Positions 23,193-46,757 of a DNA stretch of 46,757 nucleotides are shown here, in pieces. The stretch comes from Nanobdellati archaeon (GTDB lineage Archaea > Nanobdellota > Nanobdellia > Woesearchaeales > JAADFO01). The stretch lies in the NCBI GenBank assembly GCA_013152815.1, contig JAADFO010000063.1, forward strand, positions 1-46,757, given 5' to 3'. The notes under the pieces were generated by a model, which had not been told where the DNA came from, made no database searches, and saw nothing but the letters and a program-made list of their open reading frames with translations. Position 1 is the stretch's first letter. Every line of letters starts with the position of its first letter. The translations under genes and the position numbers were made by a program.

Positions 23193-23627
23193 TCATGGTT
23201 TATTCTGGATCAGTTGCTTGACCTCTTTGATGTATGCTTCACAGATATGAGCAAGCTCTTCCAAGTCTTCACCGATGGTTATCTGTTCAGTGGCATACTG
23301 TGCAGTATGTCGAATGGACATTATTGTTTCAAATGCATCGAGAAATATCTCTTTCAGTTTAGGAACAGTCTCAAGAAATCTTGCTATGCAATAATGGCTT
23401 CTTTCCCTGATGCCTTCCTTCCAGAGAACTGCTCTGGAACAATGAAAGAACGCATTGTATAGTGCAATCGCTCCCATCACTTTTTTGTCAGGTAATAGAT
23501 CTTCTGCTTCAGATAAGAAAAATCCTGCTTGTCTCAGATCTTTTACTGCCAAATCCTTTTGAGGGGTTTCCTTCTTGAGCAATCCTTTTCTAAAACAATC
23601 AGCCAATCTTGTCGAAGGTTCCATCAT
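23193..23627 (-). CDS. HEPN domain protein (MNT-HEPN partner)
   Basis: 'LRQAGFFLSEAEDLL...AIALYNAFFHCSRAVLWKEGIRERSHYCIARFLE'; directly follows an MNT gene with overlap. Confidence 0.72.
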   Translation of the reverse strand: MMEPSTRLADCFRKGLLKKETPQKDLAVKDLRQAGFFLSEAEDLLPDKKVMGAIALYNAFFHCSRAVLWKEGIRERSHYCIARFLETVPKLKEIFLDAFETIMSIRHTAQYATEQITIGEDLEELAHICEAYIKEVKQLIQNKP

Positions 23628-24198
23628 TCAGGACAATGAGTTCCTTTGCTAATCTGCTATAAAATTCGTCATCTCTTGTTTTTAGCTGCGCTACTTTCTT
23701 TTTGTTCAGAAGCAACGAGTTGACGGGAAGCCCTATTTCTTTCGAGAGCGCTCTTATCATTCCCCTTACTTCAATGTCTTTTTTATCTGTCCATATCATC
23801 AGATCGATATCGCTGTTTGCATCGTCTGTGCCTTTTGCATAGCTTCCGTATATCCCGACGGTCCCTATCTTTGCAAGCCTTGCGTATGTTCTTGATCTGA
23901 CTATCCTGTGGGTGTTTGAAAGTGACATTATCTTACAGTAGAACTGGCTGTTATAGTTTGGCTTCAAAATGATTCGATTTTTCCGTTTGGTGACGTTGAC
24001 TATTCCATATTTCTCGAAAATTTTTGTTGCTTGGGTTATCTTTCCCGGAGAACATCCAATCTTCTCGGAAATCTCTCTGATTGATAAGTCCTCTGTCTTG
24101 ATGATGTTCAGAATCTCTAGATTCTTCTCGCTCATAAGACTGCTTAACTCATTCATATTCCTGAGAAAGTGTTCATTATATTTAAACATTCTGTTCAT
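23599..24198 (-). CDS. wHTH-nucleotidyltransferase (MNT) protein, antitoxin-like
   Basis: HTH 'LSIREISEKIGCSPGKITQATKIFEKYG'; MNT 'GTVGIYGSYAKGTDDANSDIDLMIW'; start could also be 24189. Confidence 0.85.
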   Translation of the reverse strand: MNRMFKYNEHFLRNMNELSSLMSEKNLEILNIIKTEDLSIREISEKIGCSPGKITQATKIFEKYGIVNVTKRKNRIILKPNYNSQFYCKIMSLSNTHRIVRSRTYARLAKIGTVGIYGSYAKGTDDANSDIDLMIWTDKKDIEVRGMIRALSKEIGLPVNSLLLNKKKVAQLKTRDDEFYSRLAKELIVLNDGTFDKIG

Positions 24199-24209
24199 TC
24201 TAAATGAAC
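24193..24209. promoter_or_regulatory. Perfect inverted repeat GTTCATT-CTA-AATGAAC at the MNT gene start
   Basis: 7-bp arms, 3-nt spacer, at or just upstream of the ATG. Confidence 0.6.
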
Positions 24210-24210
24210 G

Positions 24211-24233
24211 ACTGGGGAGAATTGAACTCCCCA
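24211..24233 (-). other. tRNA T-arm-like fragment (GGGGAG-TTCAATT-CTCCCC)
   Basis: 6-bp stem with canonical 7-nt T-loop; shares 13 bp GAGAATTGAACTC with the tRNA-Thr T-arm at 25164-25176. Confidence 0.55.
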
Positions 24234-24262
24234 TCCACAATAACAAGTGCCATCAAGTAAAC

Positions 24263-27998: not shown

Positions 27999-28721
27999 AT
28001 GCCTGATTCCATGTCCGACCGCTACGCACGTCAGGAGGCGCTCCCTGCCATCGGGAAAGCAGGCCAGAAAAAACTTGGGGAAGCAACCGTCACGATCGTC
28101 GGTCTTGGCGCCATCGGAAGCCATGCTGCAGAGCTTCTCCTTCGTGCAGGTGTGCATAACCTCATCCTCATCGATGATGATATGGTCGAGCTCTCCAATC
28201 TCCAGCGGCAGGCGCTCTATACCGAGAAGGACATCGGCCTCATGAAGGCTGATGCGATTGCCCGTCATCTGCAGGCGATCGACGGCAAGGCCAGGCTCGG
28301 CATCCATACAAAAAGGATGGACGAAGGGAACATGGATTCATTGCTGCCGTCAATGGGCAGGGACGCAGGCAGGGTCGTCCTCGACTGCACCGACAACCTC
28401 GAGACAAGATACCTCATCGACGCCCGCTGCAAGAGCAAGAACATCCCCTGGGTGCATGCCGCCTGCGTCGGCTGGTGGGGCGAGGTGAAAGTCTTCCCTT
28501 CCTTCTCATCTTCTGTCCGGCAGAAGACCTATCAGGACATCTTCCCGGACAAGAAGACGCCTCTGGGCTGTGTCGATGCCGGTGTCCTCAACCATGCTGT
28601 GGCTATGACCGCGGCCATCCAGGTCGGCGAGACGGTCAAGCTCATCCTCGGAGAGCCACCCACAGAAGAGCTGATGCGCATCAATGCATGGAAGCATACT
28701 ATCGAGAAGATACGGGTCTAG
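27999..28721 (+). CDS. HesA/MoeB/ThiF family E1-like protein (Zn-cysteine pairs absent)
   Basis: 'YARQEALPAIGKAGQKKLGEATVTIVGLGAIGSHAAELLLRAGVHNLILIDDDMVELSNLQRQALY'. Confidence 0.92.
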   Translation: MPDSMSDRYARQEALPAIGKAGQKKLGEATVTIVGLGAIGSHAAELLLRAGVHNLILIDDDMVELSNLQRQALYTEKDIGLMKADAIARHLQAIDGKARLGIHTKRMDEGNMDSLLPSMGRDAGRVVLDCTDNLETRYLIDARCKSKNIPWVHAACVGWWGEVKVFPSFSSSVRQKTYQDIFPDKKTPLGCVDAGVLNHAVAMTAAIQVGETVKLILGEPPTEELMRINAWKHTIEKIRV

Positions 28722-33523: not shown

Positions 33524-36028
33524 TCAGCCCATATAACTGGGCTTCTCCTCCTGCATCTGTTTCGCCTTTGCCTGTCTGAAGAAGTTCTCGAGCTGCTTGT
33601 AGTTTTCGATGATATCCTTGGATACGGATGGTTTGACTATCTCCCTGGCCTTGTCGAAATGCTTCTTTGAAATCTTCTTGGCCTTGATGTCATCCCGAAG
33701 GGCCATGATGGCCGCTTCTCTGGTCATCCCCTCGATGTCTGCTCCGACATAGCCTTCGGTGATCTCAGCGAGTTTCATCAGGTCCACGTCATTGTCCAGA
33801 GGCATCTTCTTTGTATGGATATCGAAGATCTTCTTCCGGGCAACGGCATCGGGGACCGTACACATGATGATCCTGTCGAACCGTCCTGGTCTCAAAAGGG
33901 CTGTATCCAGGATGTCTGGCCTGTTGGTGGCAGCGAGGACGACGATGTCGTTCATCTCGGTGAGGCCGTCCATCTCGGTGAGCAGCTGGTTGACGACCCT
34001 CTCTCCCACCCGATTGTCGCCTTCCATGCCTCTTCGGGCCGCGATGGAGTCTATCTCGTCGAAGAAGACGATGGCTGGTGAAGCCTGTCGTGCCTTGTCG
34101 AAGATCTTCCTGATGCCTTTCTCAGACTCGCCGACCCATTTGGAGATGAGCTCAGGCCCTTTGACCAGGATGAAGTTTGCTTCTGACTCGTTGGCGACGG
34201 CCTTGGCGAGCAGGGTCTTCCCGGTTCCCGGAGGTCCGTAGAGCAGGATGCCCTTGGGGGGTGTCACGCCCATCCGGGTGAATGCCTCAGGGTTGGAGAT
34301 GGGCCACTCGACCGCTTCCATGAGGCTCTGCTTCACGTCGGCAAGTCCGCCGATCATGTCCCAGGTCACGTTGGGCCTCTCGATGAGCACCTCCCGCAGC
34401 GCAGAGGGCCTGACGACCTTGAGCGATTCGATGAAATCCTTATGGGTGATGATGAGCTTCTCAAGCGTTTCTTTGGGGATGGGCTCGTCTTCCTTGAGCT
34501 TGAGGTCAGGGAGTATCCTCCGAAGGACGATCATCGCGGCCTCCTTGGCCAGGGCAGAGAGGTCGGCTCCCACGAAGCCGTGGGTACGATGGGCGAGTTC
34601 GTCCAGGTTGACGATTCTTTTGTTGTCGGCCAGCCTGTGCCAGTACTTATAGAGTTTCTCAGAATCGATCTGCTTGAAGAAGTCATTCTTCTCTGGATTT
34701 GACTTCAGGTATTTGGAGACAGCGTTCGTGATGCTTTTCTTTGATGCCTTGCCGTTGGCGTCCATGAATGACATGATGTTCATCATCGCTTCCTTATATG
34801 CCTCTTCGATGTCTGTGGCATCCTTGATGGCCTGGGCGAAGGAGTAGAGCGGCATATAACGGGTATGGATCTGGAGGATGGAATGCCGTCCCTTCATCGA
34901 GGGGACGCCTATCTCGACCTCCCGGTCGAACCGGCCAGGCCGGCGCAGTGCGGGATCAAGAGAGTTCGGGATGTTGGTGGCTGCGATCACCACCACTTTT
35001 CCACGGGACTTGAGCCCGTCCATGATGGCGAGCAGCTGTGCCACCACTCTCCGTTCCACCTCGCCATGGGCTTCTTCCCGTTTGGAGGCGATGGCGTCCA
35101 CTTCGTCGATGAAGATGATGGCCGGAGCGTTCTTCTCTGCCTCTTCGAACTTCTTCCGGAGGTTCTCTTCGGACTGGCCGTAGTACTTGGACATGATCTC
35201 CGGACCGTTGATGACGATGAAATGGGAATTGGTCTCGTTGGCGACGGCCTTGGCGAGCAGGGTCTTCCCTGTCCCGGGGGGTCCATGGAGCAACACCCCT
35301 TTCGGTGCGTCGATGCCCATGCGCTCGAAGAGTTCAGGATGCTTCAGCGGCAGTTCGACCATCTCCCTTATCTTGGTGATCTCCTCCTGAAGGCCCCCGA
35401 TGTCCTCATAGGTGACTTCCAGGATCTTGTGGTCGTCGATCTCCACCGCTTCCGGGTTGAATTCCACCTCGGTGAGCTCAGAGATGAGCACGGCATCGCC
35501 GGGTGTGGTGTCTGCGACGATGAACTTGATGTCGCCGAAACCCAGCCCCACCATGTCATCATCGATGATGTTGAAGATGTCGTTGAAGAACGGGCTCTGG
35601 GACATCGTGTTCCTTCTTCGCCGGGTGCCTCCCAGAGAGACGATGTCGCCCTTGACGACTGCCCTTCCCAGAAGTCCCTGCTTGAAGATGTTGGACGATG
35701 CCCGTATCATGATCCCTTTGGATGCAGGGCCGATCTTGATCCTCTTGGCCTCTTTCACTTCTGCTTTCCTGATGGTGACGTTCTCTCCGATGCCGGTCTT
35801 GGCGTTCCTCCTGATGATGCCGTCGGTGCGGATGATGCTCAGGCCGATATCACCCGGGTAGGCACGGTCCACGATGCCCACGGTCTTCCGCTGGCCTTCG
35901 ATCTCGACGATGTCCCCCGGCCGTACATCTATCTCCTTCATGAATGCAGTGTCGATGCGGACGATGCCCTTGTTCACATCATCCTGGATGGCCTCGGCGA
36001 CCTTGAGTCTTATCTCTTGTCTTCCCAT
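33524..36028 (-). CDS. Cdc48/VCP-type AAA ATPase with insertion in D1
   Basis: Two AAA modules '[17 protein letters not shown]' with Walker B '[10 protein letters not shown]' and '[10 protein letters not shown]'; N-terminal '[25 protein letters not shown]'. Confidence 0.96.
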
Positions 36029-40639: not shown

Positions 40640-42736
40640 TTACCTCCGTCTTCCTGCACGGAGGACGATGAAGAGCGTCACCAGGAAGAAGGCCAGCGCG
40701 ACCAGAAGCATGGCCGGAAGATAATTTCCCATGGACCGCAGCATCCTCGATGCCCGTATCTCGACGCTGTCCATCAGATTTACCTTGTCCATCCTCACTG
40801 TTATTTCCCGGTGCGTTCCATAGTCTCGTCCCCGCTCGTCGCTGAAGCCCACCGAGAGGTTGAAGGTGTTGTTTCCTGGTTCCAGTCCCTTGGCCACCAT
40901 GTTCAGGGCGAACTGTTTATCCCCATGGAGTGCGTCCACCTGCCATGTCCGGTCATAGGAGTCGCTGCGGAGCCGTATGGTGAGATTCTTCGGGTCAGAG
41001 GAAGATCCCTTCTTCAGGAGAAAATCGATGTCATAAGGCTGCTTATACTGGACTGTCTTCGGAATCTTCACCTTTTCGATGGAGAGCGCTGGTTCGTCAT
41101 AGACCTCGACGGTCATCTGTTCGAGCATCTCCTTTCCTTCCTGCCCTAGCCGGACGAAGAGCTCTTTCCTTCCCGGAGTGTCGGGGATGTAGGTGAGATT
41201 GCTCTTCTGCTCCTGGGCGATGGGAAGGGTGAAATGGGTGCACCGGTCCAGGCAGAGGGTCATGTTCCGGAGCAGCACATTCCCCCTGTTCTTGACCGTG
41301 CAGCCGATGCGGAGCGTCTCGTTGAGATAGACAAATGATGTTTCAGGGACACAGGTGAGGACGGTCTCCTCTTCAGGGGAAGCTTTTGCTCTGGAGCGTT
41401 CCCGCTCTCTTCCCTGTTCTGCATAGGCCAGGGCATCCTTCTTGCTGATGAACGATCGGCCCTTTCTCGCCCTGAAGATCCCCTGGACGCTGTTGTTGGT
41501 GTTGGTGGCTGCACCGACCGTGAACGTGTAGATGAATTGGTCGTCCAGGGACTGGACCTGGAAAAGGTAATACGCTGTGACAGCTTCCGACGGCCTGACA
41601 AGCACATGCTGGGTCTGTGGCCCGATCAGGGTCACTCCTTTGGAGCGTTGATAGGTCAACCGCAACGGAACATAGGACGACCCGAGGTTCTTCGCCTTCA
41701 CTTCCATGACATTGTAAGAGCCGAGGTCGACCTCCTCCCTGAGGAAAGCCATGCTCAGTGCCACCTTCTTTTCTGACGGGCCATCGAAGCCTGTTACGTT
41801 CACCTGCTCGTCCAGCGGCGATGCCTGAAGGTCGATGTCCCTGCCTTTCCAATGATAGCGGGTGGAACCGGCCTTGGTGTCCTTGTCGTGTTTGAGTTCG
41901 ATGTGGGATGCATCGACGAATCCATACTCCTGATAGCTGATGTCAAAGGGCACCCATCCGAAGCCAGGGAAATAGACCTCTGCCCAGCCGTGGGGGCTGA
42001 AACCTTCGTCGAAGACCTCATAGTCGGTGTAGGCGAGGCCGGAGACATATCTCGCCGGAACTCCGAGGGAGCGCATCATGGCGATGAAGAGCGTCGAGAG
42101 CTCGTCACAGACACCTTTCCTGTTCTCCAATACCCATGATGCCTTCTGGGACGCGTCCGCCGTCAGCGTCGACAGGCTGTACTTGATGTTCTCCTCTACC
42201 CAGGTGGCCACGGTGAAGGCGACATCGTAGAGGTCGTCCTTTCCGGTGGCGAGTTCAGATGCCCTTATCATGATGTCCGGGTCGGCAGCGTCCACATTCG
42301 GCGTCGGCAGGGTATAGCTCTTTATTTCTTCCGAGAGATTTCTCACCGGGAACGCGACTTTTCTGCTTATCCTGGGAAAATGATGGTCTGTGGAGATGTC
42401 CGCGCTCACCGAGAAGGTCAGCCGATCCTGGTCCGGGTCTGAGAACTCGAAGATGAGGTGATCCTTCCCTGTCACCGATCCCGGCCGGGTGACCATATCC
42501 CTCACCTGTTGCCTCTCTGTCTGCCGCGGAAAACTGCTGAGGTTCACCCTTACACTCTGGAGAAGGCTGTCAGCTGATTTTGCTATCACCTTCAGGGTTC
42601 CGGTCATGACGATGGTCGCGTTCATGCCCGACGCGGTATAATACGGTTGTGCTGTCGTGATGGACGTGAAGAGCGTGACCAGTAAGAGAAGAAGCGACAG
42701 CAGGGCCAGCCTATGAGCAAGGGACACCTCTTTCAT
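40640..42736 (-). CDS. Membrane-anchored transglutaminase-like domain protein
   Basis: 'RKGVCDELSTLFIAMMRSLGVPARYVSGLAY...SPHGWAEVYFPGFGWVPFDISY'; signal peptide and C-terminal TM. Confidence 0.88.
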   Translation of the reverse strand: MKEVSLAHRLALLSLLLLLVTLFTSITTAQPYYTASGMNATIVMTGTLKVIAKSADSLLQSVRVNLSSFPRQTERQQVRDMVTRPGSVTGKDHLIFEFSDPDQDRLTFSVSADISTDHHFPRISRKVAFPVRNLSEEIKSYTLPTPNVDAADPDIMIRASELATGKDDLYDVAFTVATWVEENIKYSLSTLTADASQKASWVLENRKGVCDELSTLFIAMMRSLGVPARYVSGLAYTDYEVFDEGFSPHGWAEVYFPGFGWVPFDISYQEYGFVDASHIELKHDKDTKAGSTRYHWKGRDIDLQASPLDEQVNVTGFDGPSEKKVALSMAFLREEVDLGSYNVMEVKAKNLGSSYVPLRLTYQRSKGVTLIGPQTQHVLVRPSEAVTAYYLFQVQSLDDQFIYTFTVGAATNTNNSVQGIFRARKGRSFISKKDALAYAEQGRERERSRAKASPEEETVLTCVPETSFVYLNETLRIGCTVKNRGNVLLRNMTLCLDRCTHFTLPIAQEQKSNLTYIPDTPGRKELFVRLGQEGKEMLEQMTVEVYDEPALSIEKVKIPKTVQYKQPYDIDFLLKKGSSSDPKNLTIRLRSDSYDRTWQVDALHGDKQFALNMVAKGLEPGNNTFNLSVGFSDERGRDYGTHREITVRMDKVNLMDSVEIRASRMLRSMGNYLPAMLLVALAFFLVTLFIVLRAGRRR

Positions 42737-43233: not shown

Positions 43234-43839
43234 ATGGAAAAGAGTAAACAGAGTAAACAGGCGATATATCTGATCATGACGACAGAACTGGTCAAGGAGA
43301 AGCAAGAGCAGCCATCGGACCGGCGTGACGACAGCGCCTCTGCATCGACCTCTGCCGGCGAATCAGGCCAGTCCAACGAATCCATCGTCCTCTATGAACC
43401 GATGATCAAGGCGGCGAATCTCAATGATGTGCTGAAGTGGAACATGATCGAGCTGAAGGACTACATGCTCAACAACGAACCAGACCTTGTGGGAGACATG
43501 TATCAGAAGGGACCTCAGGAGACTGCAACTGTTGTCAGGGACTTCTATCAAAAGGTCACTGAGAATCCCGGGCGTTTCCGGGCAGACCTCTATCTCTTCC
43601 CCAAGGATACAGGAGAAACAGTAAAGATCATGGTTCGGCCGTTCGATACGGTGGCTGATTTCGCAGACCGTGTCATCGGTGAACAGACGCCCGACATCGA
43701 TGGAATGGAACTCACCGACAAGGTCCTTGCAGGCATGTTCCTTCTGGTCGACGGTCTTGGCAGTCTTGGCAGTCTTAGCAATGCGCCACGAATGGATGCA
43801 CCCAACCTGTATCGGTTGCTTGCAGCCTACGGGCAGTGA
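43234..43839 (+). CDS. Putative ubiquitin-like (beta-grasp) protein
   Basis: C-terminal half 'RADLYLFPKDTGETVKIMVRPFDTVADFADRVIGEQ' aligns by eye with ubiquitin '[33 protein letters not shown]'; operonic with E2-like and E1-like genes. Confidence 0.6.
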   Translation: MEKSKQSKQAIYLIMTTELVKEKQEQPSDRRDDSASASTSAGESGQSNESIVLYEPMIKAANLNDVLKWNMIELKDYMLNNEPDLVGDMYQKGPQETATVVRDFYQKVTENPGRFRADLYLFPKDTGETVKIMVRPFDTVADFADRVIGEQTPDIDGMELTDKVLAGMFLLVDGLGSLGSLSNAPRMDAPNLYRLLAAYGQ

Positions 43840-43854
43840 GGTGCTTCTCTGCCC

Positions 43855-45210
43855 ATGCTCACCCTCACCAGCCAGACACCGTTCAGCAGCACGCTAGGTC
43901 AGGGGTATGGCTATGTTCTCATGGGATCCCAGCTGTTCACGCTTGATGATAGGCGGAACGGTCTTGCACGCCATGTCTTCACCGATGGTCAGGTCTACTG
44001 GTTTCAGGGCGGTCTCAATTATGATACCCTGGAAAAACGGATCATCACCAACAATCTTCCCTCCATCCTTGCTGAAGTGAACGATCAGCTGGCCGAGGAA
44101 GCAGCCAGCGGAACCAAGGATCGGCTCAGAGCAGACACCATCCGTGCCTCTTTCAAGCATCTCACTCCGCAAACCTATGAGCAGTATATCCTCCAGCACA
44201 TTCTCGGGAGCTATGATGTTCCTCTCAGGGCATCTCCCGGCAGGTGCACATCATCTGCTGCAAATGAGTGGAGGATCACCGGTCGGGATCTGCTCAGTCG
44301 TCTTCCCATCCTCACTCCACCATACCAGGATACTGCTCTCTATTTTCATCAGGACCTCGTGGATCTGTTCTCTCTTCGGAAAACAAACGACACTTCTGTT
44401 GTTTCTTGGCAGACTGCTCGGCAGCAGGTGATGCAGGCGGTGGCTAATCTCATCAGTTCGAAACAGCGGCTTCAGCCTCAATACATCGCTCTTGGTTCTA
44501 CAAAGCTCTTCAGGAAGTCGACCCTGAGCATCGACATGTTCCTGCAGGAATATGAGCAGCGCTATCAGGGGATCCTTGATGATCTCATCCGGACAAGCAC
44601 CGCAAAGGTGGATAAGTTGAAGATGGTCGCTGCTCAGGACTATCAGCAGAGCAGTGACCAGTTGCGTGCGCTCAGTCGGGGACGTGCCCATCAGCAGGAT
44701 AAGGATCCTATCTGGTACGAACGGCTGACTGACAAGACCTTTCATCTTTTCCTGCGCATACCTCCCTTTGTGATGGTCTCAAGCGAGACCTACTATTATT
44801 TCAAAAGACCTGTCACCGTCAGGATGAAGATATCTTTCGCTGATAGCCACGGAAGTGTGGAACTTCCTCGGATCATCCATCCTCTGAAGTATGTTCATCC
44901 GTTCGTTTATTCCCCTTCAGCCGATGTCAAGGGACAAAGCATCTGCTTCAATAGTGGTTCTTCCTTGACTTCCTTGGGGGTCCGGTTGCACGATACCCCT
45001 GTCCACGGCATGGATGACCCTTCTTTTGCAAGGAATGTCCTCCTGCTTCTCAAGAAGACCGTCAACGGCCTGACGTCGGGCTATGTTGAGGGAGTGAAAC
45101 CTGTCCATAACTTGAGCGCTTTCTCTGACTTGGCTGTTCCTCCCTCTGAGATACCTTCCCACGTGCCTGTCTACTATCAGGACACCATGGACTGGGGCGG
45201 TCAGCGATGA
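43855..45210 (+). CDS. Putative E2-like (UBC-fold) protein with long N-terminal extension
   Basis: C-terminal 'FHLFLRIPPFVMVSSETYYYFKRPVTVRMKISFADSHGSVELPRIIHPLKYVHPFVYSPSADVKGQSICFNSG'; HP motif plus candidate catalytic Cys (codon 44944-44946); SD GAGGTG. Confidence 0.6.
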   Translation: MLTLTSQTPFSSTLGQGYGYVLMGSQLFTLDDRRNGLARHVFTDGQVYWFQGGLNYDTLEKRIITNNLPSILAEVNDQLAEEAASGTKDRLRADTIRASFKHLTPQTYEQYILQHILGSYDVPLRASPGRCTSSAANEWRITGRDLLSRLPILTPPYQDTALYFHQDLVDLFSLRKTNDTSVVSWQTARQQVMQAVANLISSKQRLQPQYIALGSTKLFRKSTLSIDMFLQEYEQRYQGILDDLIRTSTAKVDKLKMVAAQDYQQSSDQLRALSRGRAHQQDKDPIWYERLTDKTFHLFLRIPPFVMVSSETYYYFKRPVTVRMKISFADSHGSVELPRIIHPLKYVHPFVYSPSADVKGQSICFNSGSSLTSLGVRLHDTPVHGMDDPSFARNVLLLLKKTVNGLTSGYVEGVKPVHNLSAFSDLAVPPSEIPSHVPVYYQDTMDWGGQR

Positions 45211-46691
45211 ATGCGGCAAGCACCCAACTCCGTTTCGACCGCAATATCCTTCTTTTTGGTGAAGAGGGACAACGACGTCTCATGGATACTCACGTCCTCC
45301 TTCACGGGACCAACACCCTCTCCCAGAAGATCGCCCTGTCCCTGATCAGCCTTGGCATCGGCAGGCTCTCGCTCATCGGACCAGAACATCTGCAGGGATA
45401 TGATCCTTCTGATTTCCTGCTGTATCTGAATCCTTCCCGCCCGGCCGAGGGAATGAAGGCAGATGGTCTGCGTTCGACCCTGGAGCAGATCGCTCTCCGC
45501 GGAAAACAGCAGGTCGATTCCTATGGCATCCCCCCTGATCCTGGTTTCCTCTCTTTTCTCTCACCAGACATCATCATCGACGCGACCAATGCTCTGGAGA
45601 GCAAGGATGCCTTGTCTGCCTATGCGATGTCCCATGGGACACATCTCATCTCTGCCAGCGCGACGTCTACCGACGGACTGGCCCAGTTATGCTCCTCAGG
45701 ACAGTCCCCTGTCGACAGAGCATCGCTTGAACGCCTGATAGGCAAGGACTACGGCATCTTCACCGGTTCCATCACCGCGGGACTCGTGAGCAATCTGGTG
45801 CGTCGGATCGCCATTCCCTTCGCAAACGAACAGAAGACCCTGCCTCCTGTCCTGACCCAGTCCTACGCGCTCTCAAGGATTGCCGGCATCACCACACCCA
45901 TCGATGCTCCTGATGCTTTACCCTGGCCCTCTTCAAGGCCCTATGCTGGTGTCAAAGCGCTCGTGATCGGCACAGGAGGCATCGGCAACTTCCTCGCGCT
46001 TGACCTTGCGCTGCTGGGAATCACTCATGTTACCTTGGTGGACCCCGATGTGATCGAGGAATCCAACCTCAACCGGCAGCCGCTGCTCTATGGCCGGGTC
46101 GGAAAGCCAAAGGCAACTGTCATCGGTGAACGCATGGGCCTGATCTATCCCGGAGTATCTGCAAGACCGTTGGTCGACTTTTTCAGCTATAAGCATGATG
46201 ATCGAGGACGGTTTCAGGTCTTGCCTGAACCGCTGGCTTCAGAACACTATGACCTCATCTTCTCCTGCGTGGACAATGAGACCAGCAGGCTTGCCATCAA
46301 CGACTACGCGGTCCAGACGAGGACTGTCCTGGTCCAGGGAAGATTGGGGACAGGCAGCGGACTGCATACCTATGTTCCCGGAAGGAACCGGTGCATCGAC
46401 TGCCAGGAGAACCTGCGCGCATCCCTGGAGAACCAGAAGGCCACGGGCCTTGATGTCGACAAGGTATTGGGCCCCGGCTGCCAGCTCGAGTCCAACCCGA
46501 ACATCGTGGTCCCGAACATCATCGTCGCAGGTCTGATGACAGAGGAAGGTCTGCGTGCGCTCTACAGACCAGCGAGTTTTGCCCGACAGAAGGATGCATT
46601 GTTCTATGAAGGGGTCGGATCGTTCCCTTTCTCCTTCCGGGGAGGCGTCGATCCCTACTATCAAGCCCATCCTTGCATCGATGTTTCCTGA
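45207..46691 (+). CDS. E1-like ubiquitin-activating-type protein with tandem ThiF domains
   Basis: N-half 'RFDRNILLFGEEGQRRLMDTHVLLHGTNTLSQKIALSLISLGIGRLSLIGPE' (no GxGxxG); C-half 'VKALVIGTGGIGNFLALDLALLGITHVTLVDPDVIEESNLNRQPLLYGRVGKPKATV', 'RCIDCQ'; ATGA overlap with the E2-like gene. Confidence 0.88.
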   Translation: MNAASTQLRFDRNILLFGEEGQRRLMDTHVLLHGTNTLSQKIALSLISLGIGRLSLIGPEHLQGYDPSDFLLYLNPSRPAEGMKADGLRSTLEQIALRGKQQVDSYGIPPDPGFLSFLSPDIIIDATNALESKDALSAYAMSHGTHLISASATSTDGLAQLCSSGQSPVDRASLERLIGKDYGIFTGSITAGLVSNLVRRIAIPFANEQKTLPPVLTQSYALSRIAGITTPIDAPDALPWPSSRPYAGVKALVIGTGGIGNFLALDLALLGITHVTLVDPDVIEESNLNRQPLLYGRVGKPKATVIGERMGLIYPGVSARPLVDFFSYKHDDRGRFQVLPEPLASEHYDLIFSCVDNETSRLAINDYAVQTRTVLVQGRLGTGSGLHTYVPGRNRCIDCQENLRASLENQKATGLDVDKVLGPGCQLESNPNIVVPNIIVAGLMTEEGLRALYRPASFARQKDALFYEGVGSFPFSFRGGVDPYYQAHPCIDVS

Positions 46692-46757
46692 CCATCAGGA
46701 ACTGCTTGTCCTGAAGCGATCATCATCGTGAAAAGCACATCCCGAAAAGAAGCAACA

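Follow-up and report, generated by a model that had tools for sequence, protein, structure and literature searches.

A probable four-gene operon for ubiquitin-like protein conjugation in a Nanobdellati archaeon and related archaea

Results

Organization of the operon

The contig JAADFO010000063.1 (46,757 nucleotides (nt), forward strand; assembly GCA_013152815.1) of a Nanobdellati archaeon was analysed in its entirety and is hereafter called the window, or C63. Close to its end, three genes encode a predicted ubiquitin-like (Ubl) modifier precursor, an E2-like conjugating enzyme, and an E1-like activating enzyme (genes 1, 2, and 3, respectively). The complete operon is Ubl-E2-E1-JAB, with four genes, because the final 54 nt of the window are identical to one end of C42, a different contig of this genome, where the next gene encodes a JAB/JAMM protease. 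We consider it probable that these four genes form a reversible Ubl protein-conjugation system. A sequence-only reading of this DNA had proposed a distinct Ubl/E2/E1 conjugation operon, and the evidence below supports that proposal well. The host is archaeal, since its small-subunit rRNA scored 701 bits with the archaeal model, the top of the clan. Below, L and G numbers denote fetched loci and genomes, respectively, and C63, C42, and C57 are contigs of the window's genome.

All three genes lie on the plus strand. Gene 1 (43234..43839) is a confirmed open reading frame (ORF) of 201 amino acids (aa); an alternative in-frame ATG at 43276 would give 187 aa, and the family core spans about 43363-43788. 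The 451-aa product of gene 2 (43855..45210) consists of an N-terminal domain present in tandem duplicate and, after it, a UBC-like C-terminal domain. Gene 3 (45207..46691) encodes 494 aa with two ThiF modules; the window ends 66 nt past the gene 3 stop. Genes 1 and 2 are separated by 15 nt, genes 2 and 3 overlap by 4 nt (ATGA), and GAGGTG precedes the start codon (ATG) of both gene 1 and gene 2. The ORF positions, the spacing, and the Shine-Dalgarno-like sites or coupling reported by the sequence-only reading were thus all reproduced.

A JAB profile search of the window's own genome gave one match, at the end of C42 (E = 3.8e-16). The last 54 nt of C63 (46704..46757, plus strand, computed) are identical to the first 54 nt of C42 in the minus-strand reading, and the joined sequence contains an ORF of 513 aa (L070:7314-8855, minus strand) whose ATG lies 85 nt past the E1 stop. 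The JAMM site of this protein is complete (E178, H241, H243, S251, and D254; E...HxH(x7)SxxD), and 15 of 24 relatives match Pfam Prok-JAB. On C42, aspS follows the JAB gene. Relatives including L040, L042, and L049 have the same Ubl-E2-E1-JAB order. The join is very likely, given the assembler overlap and the conserved gene order. It had been remarked earlier that no deubiquitinase was visible, with the advice to look for a JAB/JAMM gene past position 46757; the protease seemed to be missing because the contig ends just past E1, and it is in fact the next gene on C42.

E1-like and E2-like enzymes

Gene 3 matched Pfam ThiF in two stretches (E = 8.5e-45), in agreement with the two-module ThiF/E1 architecture read earlier from the sequence. 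Among 25 E1 homologues, G255, G257, D281, N287, Q291, K302, and D356 were invariant and R290 was conserved in >90%; the C-terminal ThiF module retains every adenylation residue. The nucleotide-binding loop of this active adenylation domain is GTGGIG (residues 255-260; 45969..45986, plus strand), with NRQ (289-291), K302, and D356 downstream. The N-terminal module appears degenerate at the glycine loop, like inactive adenylation domains. CIDC (residues 396-399; 46392..46403, plus strand), a CxxC consensus in the alignment, is the predicted first half of a ThiF-type zinc site. Located 26 aa downstream of it, Cys425 (46479..46481, plus strand), in GPGC and the family motif SC....PSV...N, is the predicted thioester cysteine and is kept, along with S432 and N437, in at least 90% of the homologues. 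A profile search of the Protein Data Bank (PDB) placed the SUMO E1 UBA2 and Uba1 on top, followed by ThiF/MoeB and UBA5; BubCD and Cap2 ranked lower. In NCBIfam, ThiF/MoeB was nearest, with every score far under the cut-off, and PADLOC returned only generic E1-E2 similarity. Elsewhere in the window (27999-28718, plus strand), a single-module ThiF protein (Pfam E = 6.1e-58), a distant E1 paralogue, is encoded between glutamine synthetase and fumarase.

An E2 profile seeded with the gene 2 protein converged on 27 relatives, and gene 2 scores E = 1.5e-72 with it. The HP...IC signature that had suggested an E2-like protein is present as HPFV (residues 348-351; 44896..44907, plus strand, aligned to the HPN of E2s in the hhalign register) and Cys364 (44944..44946, plus strand), the predicted catalytic cysteine by family conservation. 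It is kept across the 70 aligned relatives: His348 in 62, Pro349 in 66, and Cys364 in 68, and the Cys364 column is invariant in a 55-sequence alignment. Phe takes the place of the Asn of HPN in the family consensus. Comparison by hhalign aligned HPFV...IC of the family with HPN...IC of five human E2s (E of about 0.001), with scores of 26-27; unrelated families scored 10-12, and none of 40 column shuffles exceeded 16. The N-terminal half of gene 2 is a tandem duplication of a domain of about 65 residues (hhalign between the two family segments: 97.2%, E = 3.7e-11). The first copy lies at approximately 43897..44080 and the second, which is weaker in the window member, at roughly 44430-44560 (both plus strand). 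We know of no other E2 carrying such a domain.

Ubl-like modifier

Gene 1 belongs to a profile family (E = 3.5e-27; own-genome match, 9.5e-25) of small proteins that are located beside E2 and often end in GG. A GG within the last 25 aa was found in 28 of 49 members, compared with a mean of 4.3 and a maximum of 10 after shuffling, and a short tail usually trails it. This arrangement resembles the pro-ubiquitin of Caldiarchaeum, in which a short tail behind GG is cut by Rpn11 (PMC5654768). The beta-grasp pattern noted earlier in gene 1 could not be verified by Pfam, profile comparison, or single-sequence AlphaFold. A second member of the Ubl family is encoded in the same genome (L073; G000:C57, 127-633, minus strand; 168 aa, profile E = 1.2e-4). 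Its gene is divergent from one encoding a transglutaminase-like core (recognized by eye), and no E1 or E2 gene occurs within the fetched 2 kb.

Distribution, association, and horizontal transfer

E1 homologues were detected in 33 of the 145 related genomes searched. Within the order, 49 of 353 genomes encode members of the E2 family, which also extends to other orders of the class. Among 35 E2 loci taken with 4 kb on each side, 30 contained E1, 29 JAB, and 23 Ubl; in the 71 loci fetched, E1, E2, and JAB occurred together in 55 and all four genes in 34, with Ubl-like ORFs missed by the profile filling the Ubl slot in further operons. All 184 adjacent core-gene pairs were co-directional (median spacing, 0 nt; 35 overlaps of exactly 4 nt). 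The association exceeds chance, because 55 of 71 loci hold E1, E2, and JAB and 184 of 184 core pairs are co-directional. The sequence-only reading had named E1 homologues without these neighbours as evidence that would speak against an operon; the neighbours are present in most loci.

In the E1 tree, copies from single genomes (G004, G041, G119, G294, G316, and G317) are spread over different parts, and close pairs span different families or orders (L052/L114/L050, L106/L054, and L107/L112). These two patterns point to strong horizontal transfer of the operons. Searches of viral contigs with three E2s and a plasmid search found no relatives, and a scan of genome contigs found only distant bacterial ThiF proteins.

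Additional genes were found in some operons. An AAA+ ATPase, PAN-like or ClpX-like, is encoded in eight (L043, L052, L068, L108, L113, L114, L125, and L142), where it adjoins or overlaps core genes or their operon partner. The locus L121 (G316:C14, 6026-17281, about 11 kb) encodes three E2 paralogues, four Ubl proteins, one E1, and two JAB proteins, which suggests that several modifiers are served by one E1. Two protein families lacking any Pfam match lie directly downstream of E1, one represented by L050:4354-5970 with relatives in 17 loci and the other by L134:10929-11774 with relatives in 12 loci; both are candidate substrates, adaptors, or E3-like factors. In L043 (4095-5847 and 7258-8975), four related proteins with an SH3/KOW-like N-terminus, as judged by eye, flank E1. 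Transglutaminase-like proteins recur next to or within operons (window 40640-42736, minus strand; L041, L067, L121, L124, L126, and L132), and in L067 the gene overlaps JAB. They are possibly accessory peptidases or chance neighbours; the latter is conceivable because this fold is common in archaea.

Neighbourhood in the window

At about 23.2-24.2 kb (23193-24246, minus strand), the window encodes an HEPN protein beside a winged-helix and nucleotidyltransferase (MNT-like) protein; the two are probably toxin and antitoxin. A defence role had been argued from the proximity of these genes. They lie 19 kb from the operon, with housekeeping genes (GlnA, fumarase, MDH, Cdc48, and SerRS) in between, which makes the argument weak, and a defence island was rejected on this ground. 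A Cdc48/p97-type double AAA ATPase (33524-36028, minus strand), 7 kb from the operon and on the opposite strand, is probably an ordinary archaeal gene.

Discussion

Proposed mechanism and its alternatives

In the mechanism that we propose, the JAMM protease (gene 4, on C42) would trim the pro-Ubl (gene 1) at a C-terminal glycine. The C-terminal ThiF domain of E1 would adenylate the Ubl and then hold it as a thioester on Cys425, and E2 (gene 2) would accept it on Cys364 and transfer it to target proteins; no separate E3 is encoded in the operon. The JAMM protease may also strip the Ubl from targets. Conjugation would probably lead to an immune-type or stress response, which in lineages whose operon embeds an AAA+ ATPase may be linked to the action of an unfoldase or proteasome.

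Several points weigh against this reading. The window copy of gene 1, with the C-terminal part LAGMFLLVDGLGSLG and the tail SLSNAPRMDAPNLYRLLAAYGQ, has LGSLG instead of a diglycine. Gene 1 has no match in Pfam (ubiquitin models included), NCBIfam, or PADLOC, its single-sequence AlphaFold model was uninformative (pLDDT, the predicted local distance difference test, of 42), and hhalign gave nothing significant against ubiquitin, SUMO, ThiS, or MoaD, so that the fold is not demonstrable from sequence; we infer a beta-grasp fold from context for that reason. Gene 2 has no match in Pfam (UBC models included), NCBIfam, or PADLOC, or in a PDB sequence search. The single-sequence AlphaFold model of its C-terminus had a pLDDT of 42 and gave meaningless Foldseek output. 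A UBC fold of this region is likely but unproven, because the hhalign probability was only 17-21%, which is suggestive rather than decisive. The C63-C42 join is based on the 54-nt overlap and conserved gene order, not on reads.

One candidate outcome of conjugation is immunity against viruses or mobile elements: as in Bil and cyclic oligonucleotide-based antiphage signalling systems (CBASS), attachment of the Ubl would inactivate viral proteins or prime an effector. We give this outcome somewhat less than an even chance, and it is compatible with the proposed conjugation mechanism. Three features are typical of defence genes: patchy presence (49 of 353 genomes), genomes whose several divergent copies are dispersed in the E1 tree, and sister pairs that cross family and order boundaries. 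The gene content is also the same as in Bil. On the other hand, no known defence gene is linked to the operon in the window, its neighbours are housekeeping genes with the HEPN/MNT pair 19 kb away, the PADLOC similarity is generic and in E1, and the system was not found in the viral contigs searched. A defence role is thus plausible by distribution and analogy only.

We regard as rather less likely that the conjugates are tags for unfolding or degradation, with PAN- or ClpX-like AAA+ proteins recognizing them and JAMM acting like Rpn11. The AAA+ genes that adjoin or overlap operon genes at eight loci would fit such a route, as would a 20S-type proteasome, encoded in 143 of 145 relatives, the window's genome included. 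However, the proteasome is uninformative because it is near-universal, most operons, that of the window among them, have no AAA+ gene, and the window's Cdc48 gene is on the other strand and of the usual archaeal kind.

In a further reading, the operon would serve sulfur transfer or biosynthesis in the manner of ThiS/ThiF, MoaD/MoeB, or SAMP/UbaA: the gene 1 product would be thiocarboxylated and deliver sulfur, and gene 2 would encode a downstream enzyme and not an E2. In its favour, the E1 is of the ThiF superfamily, and its closest NCBIfam similarity, far under the cut-off, is to ThiF/MoeB. This reading is very improbable given the tandem-ThiF architecture with the extra conserved Cys425, the JAMM gene in most operons (thiamine and molybdenum cofactor operons are without JAB; Iyer et al. 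2006, PMC1779556), the E2-like gene with a conserved Cys, and a scan of recurrent neighbours that turned up no gene for a rhodanese or for cofactor biosynthesis.

Comparison with known systems

Most knowledge of archaeal E2-dependent cascades of the ubiquitin type comes from Caldiarchaeum and Asgard archaea. Our literature searches, with most subscription papers outside their coverage, found no description of such operons in archaea of this kind, and the sister operons across dozens of related archaea seem to be undescribed. Tentatively, with confidence just short of even, we suggest that these operons are complete Ubl conjugation systems of a family not described before, seen to date in a single class of archaea with small genomes, probably DPANN. 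The family would have a new type of E2, in which a duplicated accessory domain is joined to UBC, and some lineages would have AAA+ unfoldases built into the operon; as a horizontally spread cassette, it would serve an immune or targeted-proteolysis pathway. Mobile and strongly diverged systems in archaea with minimal genomes, where some are linked to AAA+ unfoldases, are relevant to the questions of how frequently Ubl cascades have arisen or spread and of whether they started as defence or proteolysis. The compact operons could be reconstituted in Escherichia coli.

The kind of system is known, because its logic matches that of Bil, Bub, CBASS Cap2/Cap3, and Caldiarchaeum. Bil, according to the review from which we took its features (PMC11354881), comprises a Ubl, an E2, a JAMM protease that trims the Ubl tail, and an E1 with inactive and active adenylation domains. 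The archaeal operon has the same set, its Ubl fold being presumed. By contrast, the CEHH motif of BilB (C, +6 E, +8 H, and +13 H) occurs in none of the 71 archaeal E2s, which are mostly 320-550 aa and carry the duplicated N-terminal domain, the window E1 lacks a helical Cys domain of about 80 aa and has its Cys just 26 aa after CxxC, the archaeal Ubl is not recognizably two-domain, and the host is an archaeon.

The systems of Caldiarchaeum subterraneum and Asgard archaea are likewise archaeal operons with ubiquitin, E2, E1, and a neighbouring Rpn11/JAMM, and with a pro-modifier that has a short tail after GG, as in many members of the Ubl family described here but not in the window copy; in Caldiarchaeum, the JAMM protease cleaves this tail after GG (PMC5654768). 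They differ in that the Ubl and E2 described here are unrecognized by the Pfam ubiquitin and UBC models, the E1 is of the tandem-ThiF type, and the E2 has the extra duplicated domain. In addition, a Pfam scan of the recurrent neighbours, which did not extend to unlinked RING genes, gave no RING srfp hit.

For Bub, the comparison draws on PMC13373217 and on PDB entry names. Within those sources, Bub is also a Ubl conjugation operon with E1 and E2 functions, and our E1 profile matches Citrobacter BubCD in PDB. Judging by its entry name, BubCD may be a fusion; in the archaeal operons each part has a gene of its own, and no regulators of the CapW/CapH/CapK type were seen. Type II CBASS Cap2/Cap3 and operons 6a-6e (Iyer et al. 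2006, PMC1779556) share clustered E2, E1 (ThiF), and JAB functions; in Cap2, however, E2 and E1 are fused and act on a CD-NTase, whereas the archaeal operon has separate E1 and E2 genes and no CD-NTase. By the specific tests run, it is well supported that the archaeal family is distinct from Bil, Bub, CBASS Cap2/Cap3, and the Caldiarchaeum systems, because it combines 71 E2s free of CEHH with an E1 that has no large Cys domain, scanned neighbours free of RING, and unfused E1 and E2 genes.

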